The notes under the pieces are model-generated. The model ran no database searches, was not told the DNA's origin, and saw only the letters and a list, made by a program, of their open reading frames with translations. Positions 17,876 through 23,600 of a stretch of 64,000 nt of DNA are shown one piece after another. Positions within the stretch are counted from its first letter, which is position 1, and each line of letters begins with the position of its first letter. The translations under genes and the position numbers were made by a program. The stretch is from Sulfitobacter sp. 20_GPM-1509m (GTDB taxonomy: Bacteria > Pseudomonadota > Alphaproteobacteria > Rhodobacterales > Rhodobacteraceae). The DNA lies in contig NZ_JIBC01000014.1 in assembly GCF_000620505.1 (NCBI RefSeq), forward strand, positions 1 to 64,000, written 5' to 3'.

Positions 17876-18973
17876 ATGCCCAAAATCCGCTTCATCCTGA
17901 GCGAACTGCCCAATCCCGCGCTGGAAGAGACCGCGATCATCGAGCGCCTCAAGTCATTCTATAACCGCTTGCAAGACAAGCGACAGAATGAAGAAGGCCT
18001 CTCCGAAGAGGAGCGTGCCGCCCGCAGTGAATTCTGGCATCACCAAGCGAACGAATTCCCAAAAGCGCTCGACACCCGCATCAGGCGGTGGGCGCATAAT
18101 ATCCGCCGCAACCATCTGAAGGAAGTAGAGCCAACCCGACTTTCAAAAGAAGATCGCGCGATGCTGGAAGGATGTCGGGAAGGTGCTGAGGTATTCGGGC
18201 TGCGCTCGGCACATCACATCGATGAGATCGCGGCTTCGCTTCATGCGGAGTTCCCCTGGATCTCGGAAGCGACAACCCATGTTTGGCGCAGCCTTCATCA
18301 TAACCTGGCAGGTGGCATGCCCGGCGCCCGATTTGCGCCAATTCTTCTCGACGGCCCGCCTGGAATCGGGAAAAGCGCATGGGCACGTCGTCTCGCGCAG
18401 CTTCTGGGAACTCCGGACATGATCGTAGACGCGACAGGTGAGAATGCCAGCTTCGGGTTTGTCGGCAGCCAACGCGGCTGGTCGAATGCCGGCCCTGGCA
18501 GGCTCATTAGCCTGATGCTGATGCGGCAGGTTGCAAATCCGCTCGTCATCATCGACGAGATAGAGAAGTCTGGCTCGGTCATGTCCGACAAGGGCCAGTC
18601 TTTCAGTCTGCCGAATGCGCTTCTCCCGCTGCTCGAGGAAATGACAGCCTGCCGATGGACTTGCCCCTATTTCCAGAACCAGTTCGATATGTCCTTCATC
18701 AACTGGGTCTTCACCTCCAATAGCCTGCGCGGCCTGCCGGAACCGCTCCTGTCTCGGATCCGCGTCTTCAGCGTACCGTCTCCCTCGCAGGCGCAGATCA
18801 ATGAACTCGTGCTCCGTGAGGCCTCGAAGCGGAAGCTGACATCCTCCATCACGGCGGCCATCACGACGGCACTGGCCGAAGCCTTTGAGGCAGGCCACCA
18901 GATCAACGTCCGGACCGTCAAACGGATGCTGGACCTTGGCTCGGATCAGCAGAATAGACCAGTCCTCCACTGA
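17876..18973 (+). CDS. Lon-like AAA+ ATPase encoded beside tnsABC
   Basis: A 365-residue AAA+ protein. Residues 1-130 are a helical, charged N-terminal region. Walker A is GPPGIGKS (160-167), Walker B IIDEIEK with D227/E228, and an arginine-finger segment LPEPLLSRIRVF lies near residue 300. The core is most like the ATPase of Lon, including a GSQRGWSNAGPGRLISLM loop after Walker A, but no serine-lysine protease domain follows. The gene is 319 bp upstream of the tnsA-like gene in the same direction. It is distinct from the TnsC-type ATPase at 22357. I infer an accessory role in transposition, such as remodelling of the transpososome, or a cargo function; neither is proven. Confidence 0.72.
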   Translation: MPKIRFILSELPNPALEETAIIERLKSFYNRLQDKRQNEEGLSEEERAARSEFWHHQANEFPKALDTRIRRWAHNIRRNHLKEVEPTRLSKEDRAMLEGCREGAEVFGLRSAHHIDEIAASLHAEFPWISEATTHVWRSLHHNLAGGMPGARFAPILLDGPPGIGKSAWARRLAQLLGTPDMIVDATGENASFGFVGSQRGWSNAGPGRLISLMLMRQVANPLVIIDEIEKSGSVMSDKGQSFSLPNALLPLLEEMTACRWTCPYFQNQFDMSFINWVFTSNSLRGLPEPLLSRIRVFSVPSPSQAQINELVLREASKRKLTSSITAAITTALAEAFEAGHQINVRTVKRMLDLGSDQQNRPVLH

Positions 18974-19292
18974 TTGATCTTGGGCGAGCCTCAGATTCTT
19001 TATTAATATTCAGTGGCTTAAGTGAGTTTTCCACATGTTTCGAAGCTGAGGGCGTCATTTCCAGTTGGGTTTTTCACCGACTTCCCAGAAAATAAGTGCA
19101 TGGCCAAGCTGATTATCATCAGGCGGGCCAGTACAGAATTTCGCCCAGAACGGGCACCAGAAGCAGAGGTACCGCCGCATCATCACACCTGTCACGCTAC
19201 TGATAGCGGTTGAGCGTGGCAAGAGTGGCGTGTCCTCTTGAAAAGAAACAAAAATGCACCCGGCGCAACGCTGTTCCGGGAACGGAAACGTC
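18974..19292. other. Gap between the AAA+ ATPase and tnsA
   Basis: A relatively AT-rich gap of about 319 bp with no gene recognised. It probably holds a separate promoter for tnsA-tnsB-tnsC. The string AATAAGTGCATGGC near 19090 only loosely resembles the inverted form of the right-end boxes. Confidence 0.4.
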
Positions 19293-20045
19293 ATGTCTGA
19301 CGATCAGACTATCGATCACGACAGCTGGAACTATTCTCCGGCAAAGCTGCCCAGGCAGTCCAAGATCAAACTCGGGCGGATCCACGGTGTCCTGCCTTTC
19401 ACCGGCGTTCGCAATCCCGGCTTCCGGAGCTCGAGCTCGCATCGGGTGTGGATGACCTACCGGACCATCGCGAATGACTTCCAACCCAAGTGCGGCATTG
19501 CCGAGAGTGCAGCGGAAGCCGCCGTCGCCCACGAGCTGCTGCTCTCGCCTCTCCTCTATGATCTGCAATTCCAGCCGCTGAAGGTCTATCTGCGTCCTGG
19601 TGACCGCAAAGGTCCTAGCTATACGCATGACCTGCTTGCCACTTTCGTGGATGGACGGCGCACGCTCATCTTCGTTCGCAACTCTGACAGCCTGCAAAAG
19701 CCTCGGACGCGGCGCGATATCGAAGCGATCCAAGCGGCGACACCCCCGAGCGCTGCAGATAGCATGATCATCGTCGATGCTGGCCGCTATTCGCGGCAGC
19801 GACGGGAGAACCTGTTCCGGCTGCATGAGGCCATCCAGACACCCGATCAGGAAATCGACGACATCGTGCTCTGGACCGCCTGCAACCATCGTTCGCTCTG
19901 GCTGATGCGTGATCTTTTTCCGCTGCTCGATTTGCCGCGGAAGACGGTCTTTAAGTCCTGCTACCGCCTGATCGCGTGTGGCGCCCTGCGTGCGAACCTC
20001 GATCATGTGATCGCGGAATGGTCGCGGGTCGAGGTTGCATCATGA
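19293..20045 (+). CDS. tnsA: TnsA-like endonuclease-fold protein with altered active site
   Basis: A 250-residue protein. ESAAEAAVAHELLLSPLLYD then FQPLKVYL and SYTHDLLATFVDGRRTLIFV matches the TnsA N-terminal PD-(D/E)xK nuclease domain. E71 (or E75) and D113 are in place, but the position of the usual E/Q-x-K catalytic strand reads F127-V128-R129. The C-terminal half (130-250) looks like the TnsA helical domain that contacts TnsB and TnsC. TnsA normally cuts the 5' ends during cut-and-paste transposition. The lost lysine suggests reduced or absent cutting. ATG 19293 follows GGAACGGAA; an in-frame ATG at 19254 is possible. Its stop overlaps tnsB by 4 bp. Confidence 0.75.
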   Translation: MSDDQTIDHDSWNYSPAKLPRQSKIKLGRIHGVLPFTGVRNPGFRSSSSHRVWMTYRTIANDFQPKCGIAESAAEAAVAHELLLSPLLYDLQFQPLKVYLRPGDRKGPSYTHDLLATFVDGRRTLIFVRNSDSLQKPRTRRDIEAIQAATPPSAADSMIIVDAGRYSRQRRENLFRLHEAIQTPDQEIDDIVLWTACNHRSLWLMRDLFPLLDLPRKTVFKSCYRLIACGALRANLDHVIAEWSRVEVAS

Positions 20046-22315
20046 CGATCGCGCCTCGCTACAACTTCGAAGCCGGAACCGAAATCGTGGTCCAGGGGCG
20101 CGACCTCCTGCTCCGCAAGGTCGGTTTGCAAGGCTATGAGCTGGCGGACCCGATGGGCGGCCAGATGAGTATCCTTGGGTTTTCGTCCTTCGTCGAAATG
20201 ATGAAATCCGGCGTCGTGACTTTCGCCCTTTCGCAGCTGTTGCCGGAGGGAAGTGCCAAGCTCAGGCTGGGTGGTCTGAGCGTCGCGGCCCAACTCTCCG
20301 ATGAGCAACAGACTTATGGCCGCTTCCACTACGCGGTATGCAGGGCGATCGACGAGCTCCATCGGCACCGGACCATTGTCGAGGGCAATGAGGACTTCCG
20401 GATTTCCATCGGCGCCTTGAACGCCCCCGTGAACAGGAAGTTTTTGCGTCCGCTCGTCGAAGCCTTTTTTGGCGAGCGCGTGCATCTGGGTGCAGCCACC
20501 TTGAAGGGCGGCCGGCAGAAGAGCTGGTTTCTCTACAAAGGGCGGACGCTGAAGAAATACTATGGGATTTATCAGGGTCTCCAGGACGGTGATGATGTCA
20601 TTGCCGGGTTGGCGAAACTTGATCACCTCAAAGGCAACGAGACACCGCGTCTGCCCCTGCGTTTGAAAGAACTCATGACAGAGGCGTGGGAGGAGATCGG
20701 CCTGGATCTCAAGGGACCGTCGGTGGCGAACGTGCATGGCTACCTTGCAGCGCTGATCAACAGGGAAAACCGGCAGCGGGCGCTTAACAATCTCCCCGCG
20801 CTCCAAGTCCCCTCGCATCGAACCGTTTTGCGTCACCGCAAGGAGCTGCTCACGCCGAGCGAATACATGGTCGCGACCAAGGGCGAGCGCTGTGCGCGCA
20901 ACAAGCGCGGACGCGGCAGTTCGGACGTGCGCGCCCTCATGATCGGCGAATTCTGTGAGATGGACGAATGTCGGGCGTCCCTGATTACCTCGGCCAAGGC
21001 CACGGGATATTGGCATACGCTCTCTGAAGATATGAAGAAGGCCATGGAATGGGCAGATGAGGAGATCCGCAGCCGCCTCAGCATCCTTGTGATGATCGAT
21101 GTCGCAACACGCATGCCGTTGGCCTGGGTTGTCAGTGACCAGCCAAAAGCCGAAGCCACGATGCAGCTGCTGCGGATGGCAACGCGTGACAAGACCCGCG
21201 AAAAGCGCATCTACGGTTGTGAGGGCGAGGCTATGCCTGCCATGGGGCTCGGCATGGTGCGCAATGACAATGGTACTGGCCTGAGGAACGCCGAGGTCAA
21301 GTCCGCGCTCATGGGGATCGCATCGGCGAATACCGATGTCCGGACCCACGCCTCCGCGGACAAGCCCTATGTCGAGCGCATGTTCGGCATCACGGAATCC
21401 GTATTGTTCAAACTGCTTCACGGCTACACGGGTCGCAAAGCAGGAGAGCTGCCTGGATATGACGCCAAAAAATCAGGCGTCCTGAACATCGATCTCCTCT
21501 ATGAAATCCTGACCAAGTTTTTCATCGACGAATACCCGTCCCTGAAACACATGGGCATCGGCATGGGCGGGCGTCGGCCTGCCGAGGTCTATAAAGAACT
21601 GAATGAGACCAGGGAGACATTTCGTCCTCTGGATAAAGATCGCCGTCGCATCCACTTGGGCTGGCCCTTCAAGTTGCAACCAAACGATGAGGGTGTGCGT
21701 GTGCTTGAAGGCCTCTTCTATTCGTCAGACGAGTTCCAGATTGCCCGCGAACAACACAAGGGCAAGGTCACCGTTTATATCGATCCGGACGATCTGAGCT
21801 TTGCAACCGCAGTGATCCCGCGTCCTCGAGAGCCATACGAGCTGGCACTCCAGACGACCGGCTTCGCTGATCTGACAGTATCCGAATTCCTGGAGCTGAT
21901 GACGCAGTACCGGCGCGAAAACCCCGAGTTGACAACGCTCTATGAAGATCGGATCGCAAAGGTTCGCCTCGAGAGACATGATCAGCTCAAGAAAATCGGC
22001 GTCGAGCGACGGCTGCCCAAGAGCTATGTCAGCGTGGAAGAAGCCCGCAAGAAGGCCAAGAGCCTGTTTGCCTCATCTCGGCTGGTCACTACGAACGTGC
22101 CGATCGACACGGTCGCCCCAGGAACTCTGGCCACCGCGATCTCGGGCCCGGGGATCCTGCCACTCGGCGGAGCAAGCCTCATCGATCACGAGCCTGCGGA
22201 GCCGACCTCTACGCCCGTAATACCAGCCAAGACATCGAAGCCCAAGGCGGAGAAACCTTCTTCGGAAACCCCTGTCAGGCTCGGCCGCCCCGCCCAGAAG
22301 GGCGAGCTCTCGTAA
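20042..22315 (+). CDS. tnsB: TnsB/TniA-type DDE transposase
   Basis: A 757-residue Mu/TnsB-type integrase. The N-terminal third has DNA-binding helices. The catalytic core contains D308 in EFCEMDECRASL, D409 in GMVRNDNGTGLR and E445 in DKPYVERMFGI, giving the D-35-E spacing of rve-fold transposases; VMIDVATRMPLAW is the usual strand after the first aspartate. A Mu-C-like barrel and a basic tail follow, ending with a lysine/proline-rich segment that may contact TnsC. It breaks and joins the 3' ends of the element. The start ATG at 20042 overlaps the tnsA stop (ATGA). The frame is intact. Confidence 0.9.
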   Translation: MTIAPRYNFEAGTEIVVQGRDLLLRKVGLQGYELADPMGGQMSILGFSSFVEMMKSGVVTFALSQLLPEGSAKLRLGGLSVAAQLSDEQQTYGRFHYAVCRAIDELHRHRTIVEGNEDFRISIGALNAPVNRKFLRPLVEAFFGERVHLGAATLKGGRQKSWFLYKGRTLKKYYGIYQGLQDGDDVIAGLAKLDHLKGNETPRLPLRLKELMTEAWEEIGLDLKGPSVANVHGYLAALINRENRQRALNNLPALQVPSHRTVLRHRKELLTPSEYMVATKGERCARNKRGRGSSDVRALMIGEFCEMDECRASLITSAKATGYWHTLSEDMKKAMEWADEEIRSRLSILVMIDVATRMPLAWVVSDQPKAEATMQLLRMATRDKTREKRIYGCEGEAMPAMGLGMVRNDNGTGLRNAEVKSALMGIASANTDVRTHASADKPYVERMFGITESVLFKLLHGYTGRKAGELPGYDAKKSGVLNIDLLYEILTKFFIDEYPSLKHMGIGMGGRRPAEVYKELNETRETFRPLDKDRRRIHLGWPFKLQPNDEGVRVLEGLFYSSDEFQIAREQHKGKVTVYIDPDDLSFATAVIPRPREPYELALQTTGFADLTVSEFLELMTQYRRENPELTTLYEDRIAKVRLERHDQLKKIGVERRLPKSYVSVEEARKKAKSLFASSRLVTTNVPIDTVAPGTLATAISGPGILPLGGASLIDHEPAEPTSTPVIPAKTSKPKAEKPSSETPVRLGRPAQKGELS

Positions 22316-22356
22316 CTACCGCCATCTCAACGAAGTCCAGCAATGCAAGGATACTC

Positions 22357-23331
22357 ATGAGTTTCATCGACCAGAACCGCGTCAACGCTTCACTTTCTCT
22401 GCAGCGTGGCCACTATACCTTCCCGCGCGCGGCAAAGCTCCGCGAAACTTTCGAAAACTGCCTGCACGACTACTACGTCAAAGCCACCATCGGCGGGCAT
22501 TTCGAAGTGCGCGGCATGCTGGTCACCGGAGAATCCCGGGTCGGCAAGACTTCCGAGACAGTCAGACTGATAGAGGAATTCAACGCCAGCATGACGGAAA
22601 TGCCCAACGGGAAGGTAAGCAAGATTATCTACTGCAAGCTGGATGGGTCGATCAGCTGGAAGGATCTGGGTCACAAGACTCTTGAGGCCCTCGGTTACTC
22701 CGCGAACCCCCGGCGCACCCAAGGGGAACTCTGGAATATGGTTCGCCACCAGTGCCGCGAACAGGGCGTCATCGGCCTCTACTATGACGAATGCCAGCAC
22801 GCCTTCACCTCTGGCAAAACGTCCAACGAGAAGCTCCTCGAGCGTTTCAAAGCACTGATGAAGGAGCCGGATTGGCAGTTGATGCTCATCTTGTCAGGCG
22901 TCCCGGTCTTGGCCGAGCATGTGAACTCTGAAGAGCAGATCGCCCATCTCCTCTCCCACATTCATTTCGAGCAGATCCACCTTGGTAGGTTTGCTGATCC
23001 AACAAGGGATCCCGACATGGTCGAGCTGAACAAGCTCGTCTATACCTATGCCGAGCGCGCCGATATCGATGTCGACGACCTCGTTGACGTCGATTTCTTG
23101 CAGCGCCTGGATTTTGCCTGCGCCTCACGCTGGGGCCTCGTCATCGAACTGCTGATCCGCGCCTACGGCTTGTGCAGACTTCATGGCCAGAAGACCGCCA
23201 CGATCGAGATGTTCTCCGAGGCCTATGCCCAGAACTCCCGACTGCCTCAGGGCTTGTGCCCTTTCACTGCGCCCGACTATCGCGAAATGATCGACGGCAA
23301 CAAACTCATGGAGATGGTGCTGGACGAATAG
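22357..23331 (+). CDS. tnsC: TnsC/TniB-type transposition regulator ATPase
   Basis: A 324-residue AAA+ protein with Walker A GESRVGKT (58-65) and Walker B GLYYDECQHA (D144/E145), matching TniB/TnsC proteins. These polymerise on target DNA, link the TniQ target selector to TnsB and impose target immunity. The short length is closer to Tn5053 TniB and CRISPR-associated TnsC than to the 555-residue Tn7 TnsC. It starts 41 bp after tnsB with AAGGA upstream. It is the last gene of the set; a strong terminator and direct repeats follow at once. No tniQ follows, unlike the standard order; the only tniQ is at 562-2469. Confidence 0.88.
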   Translation: MSFIDQNRVNASLSLQRGHYTFPRAAKLRETFENCLHDYYVKATIGGHFEVRGMLVTGESRVGKTSETVRLIEEFNASMTEMPNGKVSKIIYCKLDGSISWKDLGHKTLEALGYSANPRRTQGELWNMVRHQCREQGVIGLYYDECQHAFTSGKTSNEKLLERFKALMKEPDWQLMLILSGVPVLAEHVNSEEQIAHLLSHIHFEQIHLGRFADPTRDPDMVELNKLVYTYAERADIDVDDLVDVDFLQRLDFACASRWGLVIELLIRAYGLCRLHGQKTATIEMFSEAYAQNSRLPQGLCPFTAPDYREMIDGNKLMEMVLDE

Positions 23332-23393: not shown

Positions 23394-23527
23394 TGCCGTG
23401 CATGCTTATGTGTCTGCTGTGCATGCTTATGGCTTGCGGTGAAAGGCGACATACGGCAAGTGTTTGAAATAAATGGTGTATTTATGCATTACTCAGCCAC
23501 CGAATCATCTGGGTGTGCAAACTTATG
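23394..23527. repeat. Direct repeats resembling TnsB-binding boxes at the element end
   Basis: TGCCGTGCATGCTTATG (23394-23410) and TGCTGTGCATGCTTATG (23415-23431) differ at one base and start 21 bp apart. A weaker third copy, GGTGTGCAAACTTATG, lies at 23512-23527. Tandem boxes of about 20 bp next to a terminus are typical of Tn7-like ends. They lie between tnsC and the first backbone gene. The precise terminus should be between about 23528 and 23600, but I could not fix a TGT/ACA end or a 5-bp duplication. Confidence 0.6.
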
Positions 23528-23600
23528 GTGCATTGGCAATTATCCTTGAGGCCTGACTTGCTTGCATACTTTGCGGAGCGGCCTGCGCAATCGGGGCGCT

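Follow-up and report, generated by a model that had tools for sequence, protein, structure and literature searches.

Gene content and boundaries of the insertion

The window, a 64,000-nucleotide stretch of DNA from Sulfitobacter sp. 20_GPM-1509m, contains a Tn7-like transposition module preceded by a gene for a Lon-like AAA+ ATPase, which sequence comparison suggests is exchanged between lineages of such elements. Open reading frame (ORF) calls confirm four rightward genes at 17876-23331, encoding the ATPase, TnsA, TnsB and TnsC, with a 4-base-pair (bp) overlap of tnsA and tnsB and a 41-bp gap between tnsB and tnsC, exactly as described in the original prediction, which was made from the letters of this DNA alone. 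That prediction overlooked a tniQ gene on the minus strand at 562-2469, as well as the stretch at 23397-23543, in which the right end and the target duplication lie. The features of the window are as follows.

17876-18973, plus strand: protease-less Lon-type AAA+ ATPase, 365 amino acids, predicted from profile matches, structure model and alignments
19254-20045, plus strand: TnsA-like protein, 263 amino acids, from PF08722 matches among homologues and from position
20042-22315, plus strand: TnsB transposase, 757 amino acids, ATG at 20042, D308/D409/E445 invariant
22357-23331, plus strand: TnsC/TniB AAA regulator, 324 amino acids, PF05621
23397-23538: transposon right end, repeats at 23397, 23418 and 23514, terminal CATTGGCA, from a pattern scan and aligned loci
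23539-23543: target-site duplication ATTAT, with its partner in the window's own genome (G000), contig C3, 605634-605638
562-2469, minus strand: TniQ/TnsD-like target selector, 635 amino acids, PF06527
2862-16678: cargo between TniQ and the ATPase, comprising an AraC-type regulator, TAXI-type TRAP transporter, PhzF-like, YjgF-like, esterase and LysE transporter genes, further ORFs and a TetR regulator

The rve match of TnsB falls under its cut-off, and D308, D409 and E445 are invariant across a 17-row alignment. TnsC matches TniB PF05621 with 41 bits against a cut-off of 22.4, while TniQ matches PF06527 with 64.1 bits against a cut-off of 27 and is 44% identical to the TniQ that adjoins tnsABC in another locus (L092). 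The window TnsA has no Pfam match of its own and only a weak NCBIfam match (E 0.016); PF08722 is matched by 8 of the 16 aligned TnsA proteins (best E 1.4e-5), the window protein not being among them. A search of solved structures with a TnsA profile found no relative, and the catalytic lysine was not identified. With the DDE residues of TnsB, the TniB match of TnsC, and the added TniQ, ends and target site, the module is Tn7-like, as had been proposed.

Downstream of tnsC, the repeat TGTGCA-CTTATG occurs at 23397 (with one mismatch), 23418 and 23514, a layout 3′ of tnsC that the window shares with six other aligned loci. If up to two mismatches are allowed, the pattern is matched 9 times in the window as a whole versus 3.4 in shuffles, so the evidence consists of the tight clustering and of the same layout 3′ of tnsC elsewhere. 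The right end reads CATTGGCA, terminates at 23538 and is followed by ATTAT. We then located the other boundary in the same genome, where the LacI-tRNA-Arg(CCT) stretch of a same-genus genome (G294) is matched on contig C3 at 605161-605628. There, ATTAT (605634-605638) lies seven bases past tRNA-Arg(CCT) and is followed, 12 bp behind the tRNA, by the left end TGCCAATGCCAATGTACCATAAG, the inverted counterpart of the window right end (inverted form TGCCAATGCACCATAAG). ATTAT is present on both sides of the insertion, at the window right end and the C3 left end. G294 itself retains an empty site, in which tRNA-Arg is followed by about 160 bp and then a VOC gene, and this gene is also the flank of the window right end.

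The ends, the ATTAT pair and the empty site place the ATPase inside a Tn7-like insertion, which most likely spans C3:605639 to C12:23538 and includes a contig gap, the contigs being unjoined in the assembly. The window contains most of this insertion (TnsABC plus TniQ) behind tRNA-Arg(CCT). Contig C3 ends in an ORF that reads like a transposase. Because TniQ is found on both contigs, the C3 copy with an internal stop, the insertion may be a single long element or two in tandem. In L168, L090 and L092 a right end, a few bases and an apparent left end stand in a row, an arrangement by which tandem insertion seems to occur. The genes for TnsB, TnsC, TniQ and a TnsA-like protein, the ends with repeated sites, the 5-bp duplication, a landing point behind a conserved gene (tRNA-Arg or nrdJ in the present elements) and cargo that includes defence genes are all shared with Tn7-like transposons as described in the available portions of PMC8649781 and PMC10293859. 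In contrast, the additional portable Lon-type AAA+ gene is not mentioned in those portions.

Fold and conserved residues of the ATPase

The ATPase matches AAA PF00004 with 38.2 bits (cut-off 21.2), and its closest curated relative is Lon (TIGR00763, E=4.7e-19), over residues 156-302 only. A structure model from 18 sequences, with a mean predicted local distance difference test score (pLDDT) of 84.7, aligns over residues 8-365 with residues 433-731 of human LONP1 (Z 22.4, root-mean-square deviation 2.8, 271 residues). In the model, the protein consists of the Lon three-helix bundle and the AAA+ module, with nothing beyond. No protease domain was found, as the ORF stops after the AAA+ small domain. 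The earlier description of a Lon-like ATPase devoid of a protease domain is thereby borne out, and so is its separation from TnsC, the two belonging to different families (Lon/PF00004 versus TniB PF05621).

In an alignment of 59 sequences, Walker A, Walker B, Asn282, Arg294 and Arg346 show 97-100% conservation, except for one proline of Walker A (92%) and one Ile (93%). We read Asn282, Arg294 and Arg346 as the putative sensor 1, arginine finger and sensor 2. Trp202 (W202) aligns with the Tyr in the RTYIG motif of the Lon of the same genome, which we take to be the pore-loop-1 residue, and is conserved in 97% of the 59 sequences and in 18 of 18 in a second alignment. The ATPase thus shares with Lon (LonA) the three-helix bundle and AAA+ module, Walker A/B, an aromatic residue at the pore-loop position and the Asn and Arg positions, but differs in being transposon-borne and in having neither the N-terminal substrate domain nor the protease domain. 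The model indicates a Lon type that has probably lost its protease, built as a threading motor; from the fold, it would be expected to form rings and unfold proteins.

Among the PADLOC defence families the ATPase obtains weak AAA matches only, and a neighbouring phosphoesterase weakly matches PDC-S10 (E 3.4e-6, 54 residues). A phage origin was considered on account of a PHROGs match, in which the AAA+ part aligns with a long, unnamed family, and of three loci in viral contigs, and was rejected.

Linkage to Tn7-like elements and attachment sites

Linkage was assessed in 292 genomes from Rhodobacterales, with matches accepted at E 1e-20 or better for the ATPase and 1e-3 or better for TnsB. The ATPase occurs in 61 genomes and TnsB in 82, with 35 carrying both (Fisher p 4.5e-8). 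Eleven of 87 ATPase places lie within 10 kb of a TnsB place versus 0.17 expected from density, and 24 lie within 50 kb versus 0.84 expected. The linkage of the ATPase to Tn7-like elements is real. It is also no isolated case: in six elements (the window, L069, L168, L070, L072 and L074) the ATPase stands directly 5′ of tnsA on the same strand, even though TnsB of L070, L072 and L074 is only 18-19% identical to that of the window. In several other elements the ATPase lies on the side far from tnsABC.

We examined the surroundings of 61 places from this genome set (the window, L069-L147, L162 and L167; matches under 280 bits were dropped). The ATPase lies behind nrdJ, the gene for the B12-dependent ribonucleotide reductase, in 21 and behind tRNA-Arg in 8, being the first gene behind the site in these 29, and is within 15 kb of tns or TniQ in 16; at least one of the three contexts holds for 42 copies. 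In a further 27 places from named records, the counts are 4 for nrdJ, 2 for tRNA-Arg and 8 for tns/TniQ, with L182 duplicating L115. That the ATPase might be widespread without tns genes, an outcome that the original prediction named as refuting it, is partly borne out: 63 of 87 places have no TnsB match within 50 kb on their own contig, many of them on short contigs, whereas the 42 copies above sit at nrdJ or tRNA-Arg or close to tns/TniQ.

The spacer between nrdJ and the ATPase contains an apparent transposon end. At the nrdJ site of G254 a full element of about 23.5 kb is present, with TGT...ACA ends, the duplication GGCCA and a 24/24 inverted end match, in which the ATPase comes first and tnsABC-tniQ last. 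The two ends in G138 are separated by 16.3 kb, with a less clean duplication. These far ends were found as inverted copies of the near end, and the same search did not find one for five nrdJ loci that have no tns genes. A search for left ends with a fixed repeat pattern gave nothing with the first pattern, and a looser one found one nrdJ end and was otherwise noise-like. The two attachment sites documented here, nrdJ and tRNA-Arg, allow function to be tested at both.

Several observations weigh against a bond between the ATPase and transposition. An ATPase is present within 50 kb at only 20 of the 114 TnsB places, and 19 of the 61 examined copies have neither a known attachment site nor tns genes nearby, three of these with less than 300 bp upstream. 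For five nrdJ copies on long contigs (G120, G042, G261, G194 and G143), the 31-52 kb of retrieved sequence contain neither tns nor tniQ. The ATPase may have a role apart from transposition, and the conserved position could reflect descent of the left end rather than function. Such solitary copies may be truncated elements; by eye, insertion-sequence-like genes lie directly 3′ of several solitary ATPase copies.

Among 40 nrdJ flanks with no nearby ATPase match, taken as the top-of-list part of 280 nrdJ genomes, 6 have an end-like match (E 0.01 or better) versus none in 200 shuffles, so the ATPase is not obligatory at the nrdJ site. The 3′ flanks with end-like model matches are L278, L279, L282, L283, L296 and L302, and ends are visible by eye in L265, L270, L281, L290-L292 and L301. 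Several end types occur in these flanks, perhaps with two ends in a row in L302, and in Rhodobacterales Tn7-like ends seem to land frequently on the 3′ side of nrdJ.

A contig scan contributed at least 22 loci (L168-L189) that read as this ATPase family, in Rhodobacterales and Martelella. The other loci among the matches listed (80 kept) cover the AAA+ part only, at 23-33% identity, and are probably Lon, except for the short L218 of Martelella (50%). A more distant relative, 37% identical over 241 residues, lies on a Cereibacter sphaeroides plasmid (L068 11626-12819), with no tns gene annotated within the 25 kb shown.

Exchange of the ATPase between elements

To what extent the ATPase follows TnsABC was assessed from identity and distance matrices, rather than reconciled trees, of 21 elements, some with partial genes. 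TnsA, TnsB and TnsC agree tightly among themselves (r 0.82-0.98), whereas the ATPase correlates with TnsB at r 0.51, with TnsA at 0.38 and with TnsC at 0.43, values that fall to 0.27, 0.17 and 0.25, respectively, when near-duplicates are left out. Every ATPase correlation is yet above chance (p up to 0.04), which indicates some shared descent with TnsABC, and five pairs are close in both ATPase and TnsB (SK1/G024, G024/window, G192/G177, G253/G046 and G254/G138).

G214 and G138 carry ATPases that are 93% identical beside TnsB proteins that are 16% identical; for G177 and G254 the values are 70% and 18%. The DNA match between G214 and G138 (88%) begins 17 bp upstream of the start codon and ends 24 bp short of the stop codon, and their attachment sites differ, being tRNA-Arg in G214 and nrdJ in G138. 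Between these two genomes, only the ATPase gene has moved. Among relatives of the window, the closest that can be judged, L069 (the G024 element) and L168, carry the ATPase. For the next (TnsB 48-54% identical), no ATPase match at E 1e-20 was found in G145 and G090, and the match in G270 lies on another contig. The proposal of a core, co-evolving gene is not supported by these comparisons, which instead point to a portable accessory exchanged between lineages.

The same pair bears on target selection, the second role suggested at the outset, taken here as a partnership with TniQ or as a marker gene of the attachment site. The ATPase does adjoin the attachment site in the 29 copies behind nrdJ or tRNA-Arg. 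However, nearly identical ATPases serve the nrdJ element of G138 and the tRNA-Arg element of G214, the ATPases of the window and G024 (L069/L148) lie next to tns, a long way from the attachment site, and six nrdJ flanks have end-like sequence with no ATPase match nearby. We regard such a role as highly improbable.

The first suggested role, a dedicated transpososome remodeller, would have the ATPase disassemble the TnsB strand-transfer complex, much as ClpX acts for Mu and CRISPR-associated transposons (CASTs). ClpX remodels MuA, and the hosts of the present elements possess ClpX anyway, which counts against this role. The same-strand slot directly before tnsA in six elements of divergent lineages, the presence of the ATPase in the two closest judgeable relatives, the aromatic residue at the presumed pore-loop position and the weak yet above-chance correlation with TnsB would all suit this role. 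A precedent comes from the part of PMC12326709 available to us, in which ClpX raised wild-type PseCAST integration in human cells, with cytotoxicity, and is hypothesised to aid post-transposition disassembly; for one TnsB variant, a selection phage dependent on the CAST propagated about 200-fold less in E. coli with clpX deleted. Dedication to one transposase, on the other hand, sits poorly with the ATPase missing beside three TnsABC sets whose TnsB is 48-54% identical to that of the window, with its weak signal beside the tight TnsA-B-C agreement and with nearly identical ATPases beside very different TnsB proteins. Inspected by eye, the TnsB C-terminal tails follow the TnsB lineage and contain no ATPase-specific tag, degron or motif that tracks the ATPase. 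A dedicated remodeller is thus not supported, and we consider it unlikely.

Possible function of the ATPase

The main rival is that the ATPase is plain cargo, a host-benefit or defence-type gene near the left end that sometimes forms a run with metallophosphoesterase and DUF6634 genes. Of the 61 copies, 12 have a metallophosphoesterase gene of one of the two modelled kinds within about 4 kb and 13 have a DUF6634 gene nearby, and runs of this type are also found on plasmids of Paracoccus and Ketogulonicigenium. The five nrdJ copies with no tns genes nearby also suit cargo. Among five copies at nrdJ whose available sequence contains no tns gene (L079, L082, L084, L111 and L113, of which L079 and L113 end near a contig edge), the ratio of nonsynonymous to synonymous divergence (dN/dS) is 0.09-0.19, a sign of purifying selection. 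This ratio was considered as proof of function in the tns-less state and rejected: the synonymous divergence (dS) of the ATPase lies below that of nrdJ in 10 of 10 pairs, indicating that the copies were transferred more recently than the hosts diverged, and after such recent spread dN/dS says nothing about the solitary state. It therefore does not separate the cargo reading from that of an accessory motor. Against cargo, the defence families offer nothing beyond the weak AAA matches, and random cargo would not usually occupy a slot just within the end at two attachment sites or one in front of tnsA. Cargo is possible, if doubtful in our view.

We favour, as somewhat better than an even bet, a portable accessory of Rhodobacterales Tn7-like elements, in which the protease-less Lon-type ATPase would act as a hexameric remodeller of a common partner and aid settling or persistence. 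Judging by its fold, the ATPase would form a hexamer that threads a protein and unfolds or remodels it without degrading it. Because the ATPase stands beside very different TnsABC sets, this partner is more likely to be a host protein that is conserved, or something that all such elements share, than the TnsB of one lineage; neither the distances nor the C-terminal tails show close matching to one TnsB. The ATPase probably favours settling or persistence of the element, in that it would clear or remodel some protein complex or a factor of host defence. A related version, which we hold to be quite improbable, is a general-purpose, element-borne unfoldase that dismantles post-transposition complexes whatever the TnsB lineage, an exchangeable counterpart of ClpX that would free the element from the host ClpX.

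As an AAA+ threading machine linked to transposition, the ATPase could work like ClpX, but it is element-borne, belongs to the Lon rather than the Clp family and gives no sign of transposase-specific matching. TnsF of Tn6022, as it appears in the available portion of PMC10293859, is likewise an accessory gene of some Tn7-like elements; unlike the window ATPase, which is shared across targets, TnsF is a tyrosine-recombinase-like target selector. In the titles and abstract beginnings of the open-access papers listed, with subscription papers outside this coverage, no Lon-like ATPase gene in Tn7-like elements was described, and open-access literature likewise gave nothing on DUF6634, on nrdJ with Tn7-like elements or on a Lon-like ATPase with a transposon. 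An unfoldase that is element-borne and passed between Tn7-like lineages would be a natural candidate to replace the ClpX add-on for PseCAST. Even if the ATPase is only cargo, its solitary movement between unrelated transposons, with the end-adjacent slot kept, is a clear case of modular evolution.

Other genes around the ATPase loci

Certain ATPase copies have an IS66 tnpB-like gene 2-122 bp 5′ on the same strand (L108, L115, L123 and L179, with a fragment in L064), and a tnpA-like gene lies 5′ of the tnpB-like gene in L064, L115, L123 and L179. This IS66-like context may represent a second kind of ATPase carrier. A recurrent run of metallophosphoesterase, ATPase, DUF6634, metallophosphoesterase and a small protein (hypZ) is found in L065 (18857-22634), L066 (10860-14634), L073 and L174, two of these four loci being on plasmids.

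Between TniQ and the ATPase, the cargo of the window consists of metabolic, transport and regulatory genes. In the nearest named relative, Thioclava sp. SK-1 (L168 421-8425), a type I-F CRISPR-Cas system with Cas2-3, Cas8f and a Csy2-like protein lies 5′ of ATPase-tnsABC, and the presence of Cas3 suggests that it is cargo for defence and not a transposition guide. The left half of the Sulfitobacter insertion on C3 (L260 4090-12880) encodes a C5 methylase, AIPR, DUF4420, Z1 and a GHKL-type ATPase, which looks like a restriction-like defence cluster.

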